In this document: positions 3,592 to 23,101 of the stretch, one piece after another
Numbering within the stretch: position 1 is the stretch's first letter
How the letters are laid out: every line of letters begins with the position of its first letter
Assembly (NCBI GenBank): GCA_023382335.1
Contig: JAMCPM010000013.1
Location: 1 to 64,000 of the forward strand
From: Actinomycetota bacterium
GTDB lineage: Bacteria; Actinomycetota; Thermoleophilia; BMS3ABIN01
Direction: 5' to 3'
DNA: 64,000 nucleotides
Translations under genes and position numbers: made by a program
The notes under the pieces: generated by a model
What the model was told of the DNA's origin: nothing
Database searches by the model: none
Seen by the model: the letters and a program-made list of their open reading frames with translations, nothing else

Positions 3592-3912
3592 TTGAAGCGC
3601 TTCTGGTTCAATCTGCTCTGGTACCTGGGAGCCGTGATTATAACGGACCTGCTGCCGATCGGCGCTTTCTTCGCGCTGCACATGTCTCAGGGAATCGGCA
3701 ACCTGGCGCCGCAGATCATAAGCTCGGCGCTGTTTTTCATCATCCTCTGCGCCCAGGCTTTTCTGCACCTGCACATCCTCCACAAGCGCTATCCCGGCCA
3801 GGAGAACAAGAATATCTGGTCGGCGCTCACCGTGACGTTGCTGGTGTTCCTCACCTACTGGCTGATAATCATCGGCGCCATCATCTGGGTGATCAGCAGC
3901 CCTGTGCAGTAG
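3592..3912 (+). CDS. Small membrane protein of unknown function, three predicted TM segments
   Basis: A TTG start follows the recR TAG immediately, so the gene is very likely translated with the dnaX-ybaB-recR unit. The 106-aa product has three hydrophobic stretches, at about residues 8-30, 40-60 and 75-100, separated by a short charged loop (HKRYPGQENKN). I do not recognise a family. The tight coupling to recR and the membrane pattern support a real gene. Confidence 0.7.
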   Translation: MKRFWFNLLWYLGAVIITDLLPIGAFFALHMSQGIGNLAPQIISSALFFIILCAQAFLHLHILHKRYPGQENKNIWSALTVTLLVFLTYWLIIIGAIIWVISSPVQ

Positions 3913-3953
3913 GAAAAGCGGCAGCGCATCAGCGCCGCCGCTTCCCGTTTCCC

Positions 3954-4529
3954 TTAAGCCGCGGCCTTCAGCAACCTGTAGGGCTCCGAGCGGCTGGCCC
4001 AGACCGTACCGGGATAGTCCCTCGACAGGGTCTCGTATGCGCCCACCAGTCCGTCAACCGTACCCTCGATCTTGTAGTGCGTTACTCCCCGCAGGTAAAC
4101 GGCCTCGGGAGCCGAGCTGCTCTGGGGATAGTCCTCGACGATCTTCTCGAAATGCGCCAGCGCTTCATCGTGCTTTTCCATGTCGAAGTACGACTTGGCG
4201 ATGCCCAGCATCACGAAGGGGATGAACTCCTCCGGCGGCAGAAAGCCGATGATGTTGTGGTGCTCCAGCCCGGTTGGATCGAGGATGTACATCGCCGGCG
4301 TCCACTTGACGTTGTAGTCGGTGGTCTCAGGCTGGGCGGTGTGCGGCAGCTGCACCGCCACGACCTCGTCGTTCAGCAGCCGGATAACATTTCCGCTTGA
4401 GTACGTGACCGCACCCATCTGCTGACAGCCGATTCAGCCGGGATTGAAGAAATCAAGGAAGACGAATTTGCCTTCATCCCCGGCGCGTTTGAGCCCTGCT
4501 TCCAGGTCTGTTTCCCATTTGACGTCCAT
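3954..4529 (-). CDS. Probable selenoprotein: thioredoxin-like domain with UxxC plus TPR-like C-terminus
   Basis: Reading from the ATG at 4529, which has a perfect AAGGAGG five bases upstream, gives MDVKWETDLEAGLKRAGDEG, then KFVFLDFFNPG. A TGA codon (4436-4434, residue 32) follows, then IGCQQMGAVTYSS, and the frame stays open to TAA at 3954 (191 aa). The region is a thioredoxin-fold motif in which homologues have C-x-x-C, so the TGA sits exactly where the first catalytic Cys, or Sec, is expected. Downstream are the cis-Pro region (VKWTPAMYILD) and a helical TPR-like tail (FDMEKHDEALAHFEKIVEDY). A conventional caller would start at an internal ATG and lose the active site. The sequence after the TGA can form a GU-rich stem (GGCTGT with GCGGTC), a weak SECIS candidate. 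A TGC-to-TGA mutation is the alternative. Confidence 0.8.
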
Positions 4530-4606
4530 GACGGCCTCCTTGAGTTCAGTGTGATCTTATTGAAAGCATTCCCCTGTGGCGTGGCGGCAAACCATGCCAA
4601 ATGTCG

Positions 4607-4681
4607 TTAAACCGGCAGATAAAACCAGCCGTTTCCAGCCCGCTGCCTCTTCAGTCTGCCCTCGCCCTCAAGCCGCTCCAG
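4607..4681 (-). other. In-frame continuation of the FrnE/DsbA gene beyond an internal TAG
   Basis: After the TAG at 4684-4682 the same frame continues for 24 codons (LERLEGEGRLKRQRAGNGWF and four more residues) to TAA at 4607. This matches the usual C-terminal tail of the family, in which a helix is followed by GRL and a GNG(Y/W)F motif ending in LP. The TAG replaces what would naturally be CAG, since the preceding codon is also CAG. It is either a recent nonsense mutation that trims the protein by 24 residues, stop readthrough, or recoding. Confidence 0.6.
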
Positions 4682-5470
4682 CTACTGGTTGGCCTCGGCC
4701 ATCGACTCCGAGAAGACCTCGGCAGCCTCGCGCGGCGCCACCTTGCCATACTTGCCCACGAATTCGACCAGCCGCTGGTCGCTGCGGCCGATCGGGCGCG
4801 GCAGCAGCTTGTCGCCGGCCAGCATGCTGAAGGCATGCTCGAATTCGTGGAATCCCTGGAAGCCATGAAGGACGGTCTCTTCCCCAGCCCGGTTGCGGAT
4901 GAGGAACGTGGGAAATCCTGTGACTCCTTTTTCCTGACACTCGAGCAGATCTTCCAGGAAGGCCTCCTCGGCTACACCCCGGTCGATGTCTTCCAGCAGC
5001 CGGGCCCGGTCGAGCCCGACCTCTTCAGCCAGGCGGGCCTGGACGTCGAGGCGGTGGATGGGCTGCCTCTCGGCGGCAGCGGCCTCACGCAGGCGGCGCA
5101 GATATTTTTCCGCAAGAGCCCGGTCCTGCAGCTCGGCAGCCTTGTAGGCGATGTTGGCGGGCCATGTAGACCTGAATTCATCTTTCATGTCCATAAAGAT
5201 CTCGGCGTTCACGGGCATGCCGTGCCGCTGAGAGGCCTCGCGCCAGTGGTCGGCCACCTGCCGGTACATCTCGGGGCCGCCGATCTGGTTGAGCGGGTCC
5301 TGGAAATGGCGGGTGTCCTTGACCAGTCCGCCCATCCTGAAATGGATGCTGACCTGGTCGCCATAAACCTCCTGGATGTGCCGAAGCACGGGTTCTGAGC
5401 CCCAGCACCAGGTGCAGTAGGGATCGGTGTAGGAGGTTATCTCCAGGACCGGTGTCTTGACGCCGTCCAT
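4682..5470 (-). CDS. DsbA family oxidoreductase (FrnE type), interrupted near the C-terminus by TAG
   Basis: The protein begins near VLEITSYTDPYCTWCWGSEP, containing the C-T-W-C active site of FrnE-like thiol oxidoreductases. It has the family cis-Pro region (GVTGFPTFLIRN) at about residue 195. The start at 5470 (MDGVKTPVLEI) gives the expected N-terminus. An upstream in-frame ATG at 5608 has a GGAGG but adds about 46 residues with no domain. The frame reaches a TAG at 4682 and would continue for 24 family-like codons after it. Together with the neighbouring UxxC thioredoxin it suggests a cytoplasmic thiol-redox locus. Confidence 0.85.
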   Translation of the reverse strand: MDGVKTPVLEITSYTDPYCTWCWGSEPVLRHIQEVYGDQVSIHFRMGGLVKDTRHFQDPLNQIGGPEMYRQVADHWREASQRHGMPVNAEIFMDMKDEFRSTWPANIAYKAAELQDRALAEKYLRRLREAAAAERQPIHRLDVQARLAEEVGLDRARLLEDIDRGVAEEAFLEDLLECQEKGVTGFPTFLIRNRAGEETVLHGFQGFHEFEHAFSMLAGDKLLPRPIGRSDQRLVEFVGKYGKVAPREAAEVFSESMAEANQ

Positions 5471-5684
5471 GTAATTGATATTCCCCGCAGGAGGGCTTTC
5501 AAGCGCGATCGCGGCATTTGCCGGACAAACGAGATCGCGAAAAATGCGGATTGCGTGACATGCGCCTGCAAGGTTAATTCCCGGGGCTTTTGGGTAACTG
5601 TTGGCCATGGAGGCCTCCGGTTGACCGGTGGCCGCCGGTTGCAGCGAGGTTTCCCGTGGATGAAAACCGATGGAAGGAGAAGCA

Positions 5685-5972
5685 ATGCCGATCTACGTCG
5701 CGCTAAGCAGGCTCACCGAAGAGGGCAGCAAGACCATCAAGAAGAATCCGGCAAGGATCCTCGAGGTAAACAAGGACATCGAGGCGATGGGAGTCAAGAT
5801 CCTTTCGCAGTATGCCCTGCTCGGTGAATATGACTTCATCAACATCCTCGAGGCGCCGGACAACGACACGATCGTCAAGATGTCGGTCGAGATCGGCTCC
5901 CGCGGCTCGGTGCAGCTGCAGACGCTGCCGGCCATGCCCATCAACGAGCTGATCGAAGACCTTCAGGGCTAG
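5685..5972 (+). CDS. GYD domain-containing protein
   Basis: A 95-aa protein with the GYD pattern: MPIYVALSRLTEEGSKTIKKN at the N-terminus, a central LLGEYDFINILEAPD segment and LQTLPAMPI near the C-terminus. The family folds as a dimeric alpha-beta barrel, and its biochemical role is unknown. The ATG at 5685 is preceded by AAGGAGAAGC. An in-frame ATG at 5670 lies upstream of that RBS and is unlikely. Confidence 0.85.
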   Translation: MPIYVALSRLTEEGSKTIKKNPARILEVNKDIEAMGVKILSQYALLGEYDFINILEAPDNDTIVKMSVEIGSRGSVQLQTLPAMPINELIEDLQG

Positions 5973-17854: not shown

Positions 17855-19156
<1,302 letters not shown>

Positions 19157-19170
19157 GGCCGGAGGAAATA

Positions 19171-19875
<705 letters not shown>

Positions 19876-19876
19876 T

Positions 19877-20116
19877 ATGAGAGCTAAAGTCTATATAACT
19901 CCCAAGGCGGGGATCCTGGACCCGCAGGGACTCACCATCGAGCGCTCCCTGCCGGCGCTGGGCTTCGAGGGAGTCAAGAACGTGCGCGTTGGCAAGTACA
20001 TCGAGCTGGAACTGCCCGACGGCGAAGGCGCCGGCGAGGCCGTCGACAAGATGTGCCACAAGCTGCTGGCCAATCCCATCATCGAGGATTTTGAATTCGA
20101 GCTAGTGTCCGAGTAG
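19877..20116 (+). CDS. purS: FGAM synthase subunit PurS
   Basis: A 79-aa protein starting [18 protein letters not shown], with a central strand-helix pattern ([12 protein letters not shown]) typical of PurS. It bridges PurQ and PurL in the three-subunit FGAM synthase. The ATG lies one base after the purC stop. Its TAG overlaps the purQ GTG by one base. Confidence 0.95.
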
Positions 20117-20856
20117 TGACCGACTCCCCACAGACCGAAGCAACCCCCGTCCGGTTCGGGGTCGTGGTTTTTCCCGGCTCCAACTGCGACGCCGACGCCT
20201 ACGACGCCGTCAGTTCCTTCCCCGGCGCCGAGGCCCGCTACCTCTGGCACAAGGATACCGGGCTCGACGGGCTCGACTGCGTCATTCTTCCCGGTGGATT
20301 CTCTTACGGAGATTATCTGCGCTGCGGCGCTATCGCCCGCTTTTCCCCGATCATGACCGCGGTCAGGAACTTCGCCGACGCCGGCGGCCTGGTCATCGGC
20401 ATCTGCAACGGCTTCCAGATCTTGCTGGAAGCGGGGATGCTCCCGGGCGCCATGCACCAGAACGAGGGGCTCAAGTTCGTCTGCAAGCTGGTGAACCTGC
20501 GCGTGGAGAACGATGCGACGCCGTTCACGTCCGGATATGAAGCCGGACAGGTCATAAAGATCCCCATCGCCCACCACGAGGGCAACTATTTCATCGATAA
20601 TGTCGGCCTCGCCGAGCTCGAGGCCAACGACCAGATCGTCGTGCGTTATTGCGAAGGGAGCGGCCAGACCACCGCGGAGTCGAATCCCAACGGCTCGCTG
20701 GGCAACATCGCCGGCGTCTGCAACCGGGAAGGCAACGTCTTCGGCTTGATGCCTCATCCGGAACGTGTTTGTGACGCCGTCATCGGCGGCACCGACGGGC
20801 GCGGCGTCTTTGAGTCGATCATCTCCGCGATCGCCGCCAGGGCGGGCGCGCGATGA
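20116..20856 (+). CDS. purQ: FGAM synthase glutaminase subunit PurQ
   Basis: 246 aa of the class I glutamine amidotransferase fold: [13 protein letters not shown] at the N-terminus, [14 protein letters not shown], the nucleophile GICNGFQ and a C-terminal LMPHPER with the catalytic His. It supplies ammonia to PurL. The GTG start overlaps the purS TAG, indicating coupled translation. Confidence 0.96.
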
Positions 20857-20890
20857 CGCCTGTAAAGTCAAATGTCATTCGGGAAGACTC

Positions 20891-23101
20891 ATGAGCGCCG
20901 ACCTCGACCAGAAACAGGCTTACGAGCTCCTCGGGCTCAAGAAGAAGGAATACGACGGCATCTGCAAGGCCATGGGCCGCGATCCCAACTACACCGAGCT
21001 GGCGGTGTTCTCGCTGATGTGGAGCGAGCACTGCGGCTATAAGCACTCGCGGCCGCTGCTGAAGAATCTTCCCACCGAGGGCGAGCGCATCCTCCAGGGG
21101 CCCGGCGAGAACGCCGGCATCATCGACATCGGCGGCGGCCTGGCCATCGCCATGAAGATCGAGAGCCACAACCATCCCTCCGCCATCGAGCCCTTCCAGG
21201 GCGCGGCCACCGGCATCGGCGGCATCGTCCGCGACATCTTCGCCATGGGAGCCCGTCCGATCGCCAACCTCGATCCGCTGCATTTCGGCTCGCTGGAAAA
21301 GGCGCGCCAGAAATTCCTGCTGGAAGGCGTGGTCGAGGGCATAGCTTCCTACGGCAACTGCATGGGCATACCCACCATCGCCGGCGAGATCCATTTCGAG
21401 GACGCCTACGAGGGCAACTGCCTCATCAACGTCATGTGCGTGGGGCTGGTGGAGCAGGACAAGATCTTACGCGCCAAGGCGGAAGGGCCCGGCAACCTGG
21501 TGGTGCTGATCGGCTCGACGACCGGCCGCGACGGCATCGGCGGCGCCAGCATCCTGGCGTCGGCCGAGTTCGACGAGACTGCCCAGGAGAAGCGTCCGAC
21601 CGTCCAGGTGGGCGATCCCTTCACCGAGAAGAAGCTGCTGGAGGCCTGCCTGGAGCTGCGCGACCGGGGCCTTCTTGTGGCGCTTCAGGATCTCGGCGCC
21701 GCCGGGCTTTCGAGCTCCTCCAGCGAGATGGCCAGCAAGGGCGGGGTCGGCATCGACATGGACATCTCCAAAGTTCCGCTGCGCGAGCAGGGCATGGAGC
21801 CTTTCGAGATCATGATCTCCGAATCGCAGGAACGGATGCTGGCGGTGATCACGCCCGAGCTCGAGGAAGAGGCGCTGGCGGTCTGCGACAAGTGGGATCT
21901 CGACGCCAACGTCATCGGCAGGGTCACCGACACCAGGAAACTGCGGGTCTTCATGGGCGACGAGCTGGTGGCTGACATGCCGGTGGACGCTCTTGTTGAT
22001 GAGGCGCCGACCTATGTTGTCGAGACTGTCCGGCCGGAACACGAGGTCGACGAGCCGCTTGCCGAGGATCATTACGCGCCGCCCTCAGACCTCAACGAGG
22101 TGCTGACAACCCTTTTGCGTTCCCCTAATATTTGTGACAAAAGCTGGGTCTACCGGCAGTACGACCACATGGTCCAGACCAACAACGCCCTCTGGCCGGG
22201 AGCCGAGGCCGCGGTGCTGCGCATCAAGGGCCGTGATACCGGCGTGGCGCTGACCACCGACGGCAACGGCCGCCGCTGCTACCTCGATCCGCGCCGGGGA
22301 GCCCGGGCTGCGGTCGCCGAGGCGGCGCGCAATCTTTCCTGCGCCGGGGCGAAACCTTTGGCCGTCACCAACTGTCTTAATTTTGGCAATCCTGAAAAGG
22401 GCGAGATCTACCACCAGTTCAAGGAAGCGGTCGAGGGCATGGCTGAGGCCTGCCTGGCGTTCGAAACGCCGGTTACCGGAGGCAACGTCAGTTTTTACAA
22501 CGAGAGCTTCGGACAGGCGATCTATCCCAATCCGGTCGTGGGCATGATGGGCCTGATCGAGGACGTCAAACTCACCGGCACCCCCGGATTCAAGCAGGAA
22601 GGCGACGCCGTGCTGCTGCTGGGCAACGCCCGGCCGGCGATCGACGGCTCCGAGTACCAGCTGCGGGTGCGCGGCGAGGTGGCGGGCCGCATACCCGATG
22701 TCGACCTGGAAATGGAAAAACAGCTGCAATTGCTCGTAAGAGAAGCTATCCTTGAAGGACTGGTGAAAAGCGCCCACGACGTCAGCGACGGCGGTCTGGC
22801 CTGCTGCCTGGCGGAGTCCGCCATCGACGGAGGCATCGGCGCCAGTATCGAGCTGACTTCCGATCAGCGCCCGGACCTGCTGCTGTTCGGCGAGGCTCCC
22901 GGGTTGATAGTGGTCACCGTCGGGGAAAAGGACCTGGAGCATTTCGCCCAGCTGGCGCTGGATCTGTCGGCCACGGTCATCGGCCGCGTCGGCGGGGACC
23001 GCCTGGTCATCAGGGCGGGCGGGGCCGAGCAGGTCAATCTGCCGGTGGCGCAGGCGGACCAGGCCTGGAGGACGGCGCTGGAAAACCTGGTGCACGGTTA
23101 G
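20891..23101 (+). CDS. purL: FGAM synthase large subunit PurL (small-type)
   Basis: The start at 20891 gives 736 aa beginning MSADLDQKQAYELLGLKKKE. SLMWSEHCGYKHS, MKIESHNHPSAIEPFQGAAT and HDVSDGGLACCLAE are diagnostic. It converts FGAR to FGAM with ATP and PurQ-derived ammonia. An upstream in-frame extension into purQ is spurious. The 34-base gap after purQ is the first sizeable one in this run. Confidence 0.96.
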   Translation: MSADLDQKQAYELLGLKKKEYDGICKAMGRDPNYTELAVFSLMWSEHCGYKHSRPLLKNLPTEGERILQGPGENAGIIDIGGGLAIAMKIESHNHPSAIEPFQGAATGIGGIVRDIFAMGARPIANLDPLHFGSLEKARQKFLLEGVVEGIASYGNCMGIPTIAGEIHFEDAYEGNCLINVMCVGLVEQDKILRAKAEGPGNLVVLIGSTTGRDGIGGASILASAEFDETAQEKRPTVQVGDPFTEKKLLEACLELRDRGLLVALQDLGAAGLSSSSSEMASKGGVGIDMDISKVPLREQGMEPFEIMISESQERMLAVITPELEEEALAVCDKWDLDANVIGRVTDTRKLRVFMGDELVADMPVDALVDEAPTYVVETVRPEHEVDEPLAEDHYAPPSDLNEVLTTLLRSPNICDKSWVYRQYDHMVQTNNALWPGAEAAVLRIKGRDTGVALTTDGNGRRCYLDPRRGARAAVAEAARNLSCAGAKPLAVTNCLNFGNPEKGEIYHQFKEAVEGMAEACLAFETPVTGGNVSFYNESFGQAIYPNPVVGMMGLIEDVKLTGTPGFKQEGDAVLLLGNARPAIDGSEYQLRVRGEVAGRIPDVDLEMEKQLQLLVREAILEGLVKSAHDVSDGGLACCLAESAIDGGIGASIELTSDQRPDLLLFGEAPGLIVVTVGEKDLEHFAQLALDLSATVIGRVGGDRLVIRAGGAEQVNLPVAQADQAWRTALENLVHG

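Follow-up and report, generated by a model that had tools for sequence, protein, structure and literature searches.

A probable selenoprotein with a UxxC thioredoxin domain and a TPR-like tail in an uncultured actinobacterial lineage

The window, i.e., the whole stretch of 64,000 nucleotides that we analysed (Actinomycetota bacterium, assembly GCA_023382335.1, contig JAMCPM010000013.1), contains on its minus strand a 191-residue reading frame (4529-3954) with a single in-frame TGA at 4436-4434. A ribosome binding site, AAGGAGG (4541-4535), lies five bases before the ATG (4529-4527); 31 codons lead from this ATG to the TGA, which is codon 32 of 192, and a further 159 codons follow before the TAA stop (3956-3954). 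The TGA is the first position of UIGC within the motif NPG-U-IG-C, and the partner residue of this UxxC motif, Cys35 (TGT, 4427-4425), is invariant in our alignment (A2). These features bear out the original prediction, made from the DNA letters, of a perfect RBS and ATG leading into a frame where TGA stands at the U of U-x-x-C and the protein goes on for 159 residues. It had also foreseen that standard annotation would truncate the gene, and under translation table 11 the only ORF listed is one of 154 residues, which starts at an internal ATG (Met38, 4418-4416) and does not include the active site. Scanning the window for TGA codons preceded by 25 or more open codons and followed by 60 or more gave 121, with a Cys at +3 or -3 in 5 of them; among these five, the gene at 4529-3954 is the one shown to be conserved, with relatives that carry TGA at the identical codon, the remaining four having been judged by eye only. 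The TGA in UIGC is more than a chance occurrence.

The encoded protein matches two Pfam models above their gathering scores, Thioredoxin_2 (PF13098; 35.6 bits, cut-off 27) and TPR_6 (33.6 bits). These correspond to a thioredoxin-fold domain at residues ~3-104 (4523-4218, minus strand) and a helical, TPR-like tail at residues ~99-191 (4235-3957), with the TPR_6 match at residues 106-137. An AlphaFold2 model built with 24 relatives (pLDDT 97, pTM 0.92) shows a thioredoxin fold, in which UIGC opens a helix, followed by the short helical tail. By sequence, the solved structures closest to it are those of a putative disulphide isomerase and of DsbD-gamma domains; by fold, the two best PDB matches found by Foldseek are thioredoxin-TPR proteins of the YbbN/CnoX type (3qdn and 3qou), whose full-length superposition is poor (TM 0.43 by query, rmsd 11-12 Å). 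We saw no signal-like N-terminus in the 191-residue protein, so it is probably cytoplasmic. None of the NCBIfam models reaches its cut-off for this protein.

Immediately upstream, on the same strand, lies a gene encoding a DsbA/FrnE-like protein (5608-4682; PF13743, PF01323). A DsbA/FrnE-like gene is also located upstream of the selenoprotein gene in one relative, L025, with a stop codon that overlaps the RBS of the selenoprotein gene. When we looked for a conserved gene neighbourhood among the relatives, none of the adjacent genes proved to be widely shared, and DsbA/FrnE is a neighbour in the window and L025 only. This arrangement gives no more than a hint, confined to that lineage, that the two genes may share a function and possibly be co-expressed. 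As a separate observation, the DsbA/FrnE-like gene of the window stops at a TAG (4684-4682, minus strand) beyond which the frame runs on for 24 codons (LERLEGEGRLKRQRAGNGWFYLPV); this extension matches the tail of the L025 relative, where the position of the TAG is Trp (TGG). Pyrrolysine at this TAG was considered and rejected, since no pylS scored over the cut-off and the codon aligns with the Trp TGG of L025, and the TAG is instead likely to be a recent nonsense mutation that trims a C-terminal, winged-helix-like tail.

The assembly containing the window (2.45 Mb, 99% complete) encodes all four components that the original prediction had proposed searching for. On C16, selA (18008-19414; 576.8 bits), selB (19470-21362; 352.9 bits) and the tRNA-Sec gene, selC (22268-22359; 67.8 bits, with the anticodon TCA according to ARAGORN), are grouped in one cluster, and selD (L057) is located at G000:C14:29557-30489 on the minus strand (379.7 bits). 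Absence of the Sec machinery, the finding named in advance as speaking against a selenoprotein, is thereby excluded. An in-frame TGA is present in selD too, within the motif GAGUACK, and SelD of this genome is probably a selenoprotein as well. In total, the genome has a full set of Sec genes together with no fewer than two candidate selenoprotein genes that contain a TGA.

Relatives of the gene occur both within the phylum and beyond it. Protein matches with E <= 1e-15 are present in 7 of 296 genomes of the phylum, with one TGA in 6 of the 7, and the gene is present in 3 of the 5 listed genomes that belong to the same family as the window. One scan of the GTDB contig collection identified 31 loci, from Actinomycetota, Desulfobacterota and other former Deltaproteobacteria, Nitrospirota, Nitrospinota, and Geomonas. 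The scan used two search patterns, one of which demanded a Cys codon at the position of Sec32, and it was therefore without bias toward TGA. It had been suggested that homologues should carry Cys or Sec at this position, and exactly these were found: the codon is TGA in 28 of the 31 loci and TGC in the other 3, all of them Geomonas. The sequence on both sides of the TGA aligns with that of the Cys homologues, the presence of TGA or TGC at codon 32 holds down to ~30% identity, and TGA at codon 32 recurs in dozens of independent assemblies from several phyla.

Both forms also occur within the Geobacteraceae, where 39 of 48 genomes contain a match that is full-length or nearly so, 19 with a TGA inside and 20 without, the codon itself having been read only in a parsed subset of these loci. 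In a midpoint-rooted tree for which bootstrapping did not settle, the 16 Cys rows fall into a single group (100/99) located beside and within the Sec rows of the same family, a pattern that would fit a single change from Sec to Cys. The clade of the window branches among Desulfobacterota and Nitrospirota rows and apart from the Acidimicrobium-type rows of Actinomycetota, as judged with midpoint rooting and a group test that ignored ungrouped rows; gene transfer across phyla was considered in view of this placement, which may or may not reflect it. We observed selB above its cut-off in all TGA-bearing genomes tested; the Geomonas genomes with the Cys form retain selB, and G290, which carries a distant relative without TGA and is only 75% complete, has no selB above the cut-off. 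A search for plasmid-borne relatives returned DsbD domains only. Two further loci were noted in the course of this survey. G299, a genome that has the present UIGC family, also encodes a second, shorter thioredoxin-like protein (L062, G299:C39:32910-33221) with TGA in ADWUTYC and an adjoining signal-like N-terminus, and a relative of the window's family contains a PF13098-like match with one in-frame TGA that scores 23 bits, below the cut-off (G282:C25:100021-100290, minus strand).

Downstream of the TGA we identified a SECIS-like hairpin (4417-4398, minus strand), in which 4417-4410 pairs with 4405-4398 around the loop GUCA (4409-4406). Counted from the T of the TGA, its stem joins nucleotides 20-27 with 32-39 (8 bp in the window, of which the inner 6 bp are conserved); it begins 17 nt past the TGA, and the spacing from TGA to loop is 24 nt. 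The bSECIS model, as described in PMC13188914, specifies a loop of 3-9 nt with a G in the first two loop positions, a spacing of 16-37 nt and a stem of 4-16 bp, and the stem, loop and spacing observed here agree with it throughout. Taken singly, the window's hairpin has unremarkable stability (z -1.09), and Rfam gave no match in 3600-5700. Among 28 distinct Sec sequences, pairing at 21-26/33-38 holds in 98.2% of cells and three of the six stem pairs show two-sided changes; the covariation score is higher than in any of the 500 shuffles or any slid version, and RNAalifold recovers the same helix unprompted. The suggestion that a SECIS element would be found after the TGA thus holds, with a stem-loop that both fits the model and covaries.

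The stem is decayed where Cys replaces Sec, with a mean of 5.8 of the 6 pairs kept in Sec members vs 3.0 in Cys members, a contrast that counts as a single evolutionary event since these Cys members are one clade. Both stem sets contain a few duplicates, and dropping one Cys row read in the wrong frame (L070) leaves the picture unchanged. One Thr codon falls within the hairpin; it reads ACG in 37 of the 43 Sec rows, and ACC predominates among the Cys rows. The conserved protein motif accounts for part of the stem conservation.

Taken together, we consider this to be a genuine bacterial selenoprotein gene in which Sec would be inserted at UGA codon 32, with a probability of roughly 0.94, selenium incorporation being deduced here from genomic data. 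The TGA could otherwise be a true stop, arising by nonsense mutation or sequencing error, in which case any product would be the 154-residue protein begun at Met38. This is what the standard code gives, with an ORF starting at 4418, but it is very improbable, as the TGA is conserved at this codon across dozens of genomes from several phyla, both of its flanks align with Cys homologues, and the product of the internal ATG would be without an active site. We give equally little credence to a UGA read by a near-cognate tRNA, e.g., that for Trp or Cys, or to a changed TGA code in this genome. Codes in which TGA specifies Trp occur in other lineages, but our analysis found no evidence supporting such a reading here, and the complete Sec system with its tRNA-Sec (anticodon TCA), the many frames in the region that end with TGA, the specificity of the hairpin to TGA-bearing members and the presence of Cys, not Trp, at this site in homologues all argue against it.

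With insertion of Sec as the preferred reading, the ribosome would meet UGA at codon 32 of the mRNA, SelB carrying Sec-tRNA would bind the hairpin 17-36 nt downstream, and selenocysteine would be inserted to give a 191-residue protein with a Sec-Ile-Gly-Cys active site. This protein is most likely a Sec-dependent thiol:disulfide (or related) reductase, and the proposal of a Sec-containing redox enzyme is supported by the sel genes, the Sec/Cys homologues and the covarying stem-loop. In other UxxC thioredoxins, Sec attacks, Cys resolves and a Pro faces the active site. By analogy, the Sec32 selenolate may attack the substrate and Cys35 release it via a Se-S bond, and Thr77-Pro78, which is invariant in the alignment, may face the active site; the TPR-like tail may contact a partner or substrate. 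A different function, as a Sec-containing chaperedoxin similar to CnoX/YbbN and not a plain reductase, seems unlikely. In such a protein, cytoplasmic and mostly in the Sec form across several phyla, the TPR tail would bind oxidised or unfolding clients and bring UxxC to them, and the thioredoxin domain would protect them. The order of the domains, the lack of a signal-like start and the two YbbN-type fold matches are consistent with this, but the superposition is poor, the tail is short and the domain is nearer DsbD-gamma by sequence.

Automatic annotation would cut the active site off this protein, which also falls outside every NCBIfam model; members of the family are therefore likely to be wrongly annotated in the genomes concerned, many of which come from uncultured organisms. 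The family also offers a clean natural comparison of Sec with Cys, with one Geobacteraceae clade having Cys and a lost SECIS stem, and our survey adds Actinomycetota lineages to the bacteria using this kind of selenoprotein. We regard it as a convincing but fairly ordinary bacterial selenoprotein, of a family probably already predicted from Geobacter and found here in an uncultured actinobacterial lineage, so that its value is in being useful for annotation and its novelty is modest.

Several known systems share parts of this architecture. The NCBIfam families TsoB (NF045694), VPGUxxT (NF041382 and NF041383) and Trx7/PDZ (NF041199) likewise combine a thioredoxin-like domain with a Sec located at the redox site or close to it, but the present protein scores far below their cut-offs (34.5 vs 805 for TsoB, 20.2 vs 350 and 24.6 vs 275 for the two VPGUxxT models, and 12.4 vs 300 for Trx7/PDZ). 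The CnoX/YbbN chaperedoxins (PMC6282202, PMC8129009), which provide the top Foldseek matches and are characterised by a long TPR domain, holdase activity and the handing over of clients to GroEL, also have a thioredoxin domain followed by TPR, whereas here the tail is much shorter, the overall superposition is poor and Sec is present. The closest solved sequences and folds include the C-terminal (gamma) domain of DsbD and related thioredoxin domains (2kuc, 4ip6, 1uc7, 2fwe); unlike DsbD, this 191-residue protein has no membrane or alpha domain and consists of thioredoxin and TPR-like parts only, with Sec replacing the first Cys, a helical tail added and a probably cytoplasmic location. The nearest likeness is to the "thiol:disulfide interchange protein" selenoproteins, which are listed among predicted prokaryotic selenoproteins as Sec-containing PF13098 proteins with UxxC (representative WP_011366075.1; PMC13188914, Table 1) and are reported from Geobacter metallireducens, G. 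uraniireducens and Syntrophus aciditrophicus (PMC1794560). The present family also matches PF13098 above the gathering score, has Sec first in UxxC and occurs in Geobacteraceae, and in two Geobacteraceae genomes no other PF13098 match above the cut-off carries a TGA. Its TPR-like tail and its Actinomycetota members do not feature in the relevant portions of those two accounts. Matched by domain, motif and taxa, the present family is probably that of these long-predicted "thiol:disulfide interchange protein" selenoproteins.
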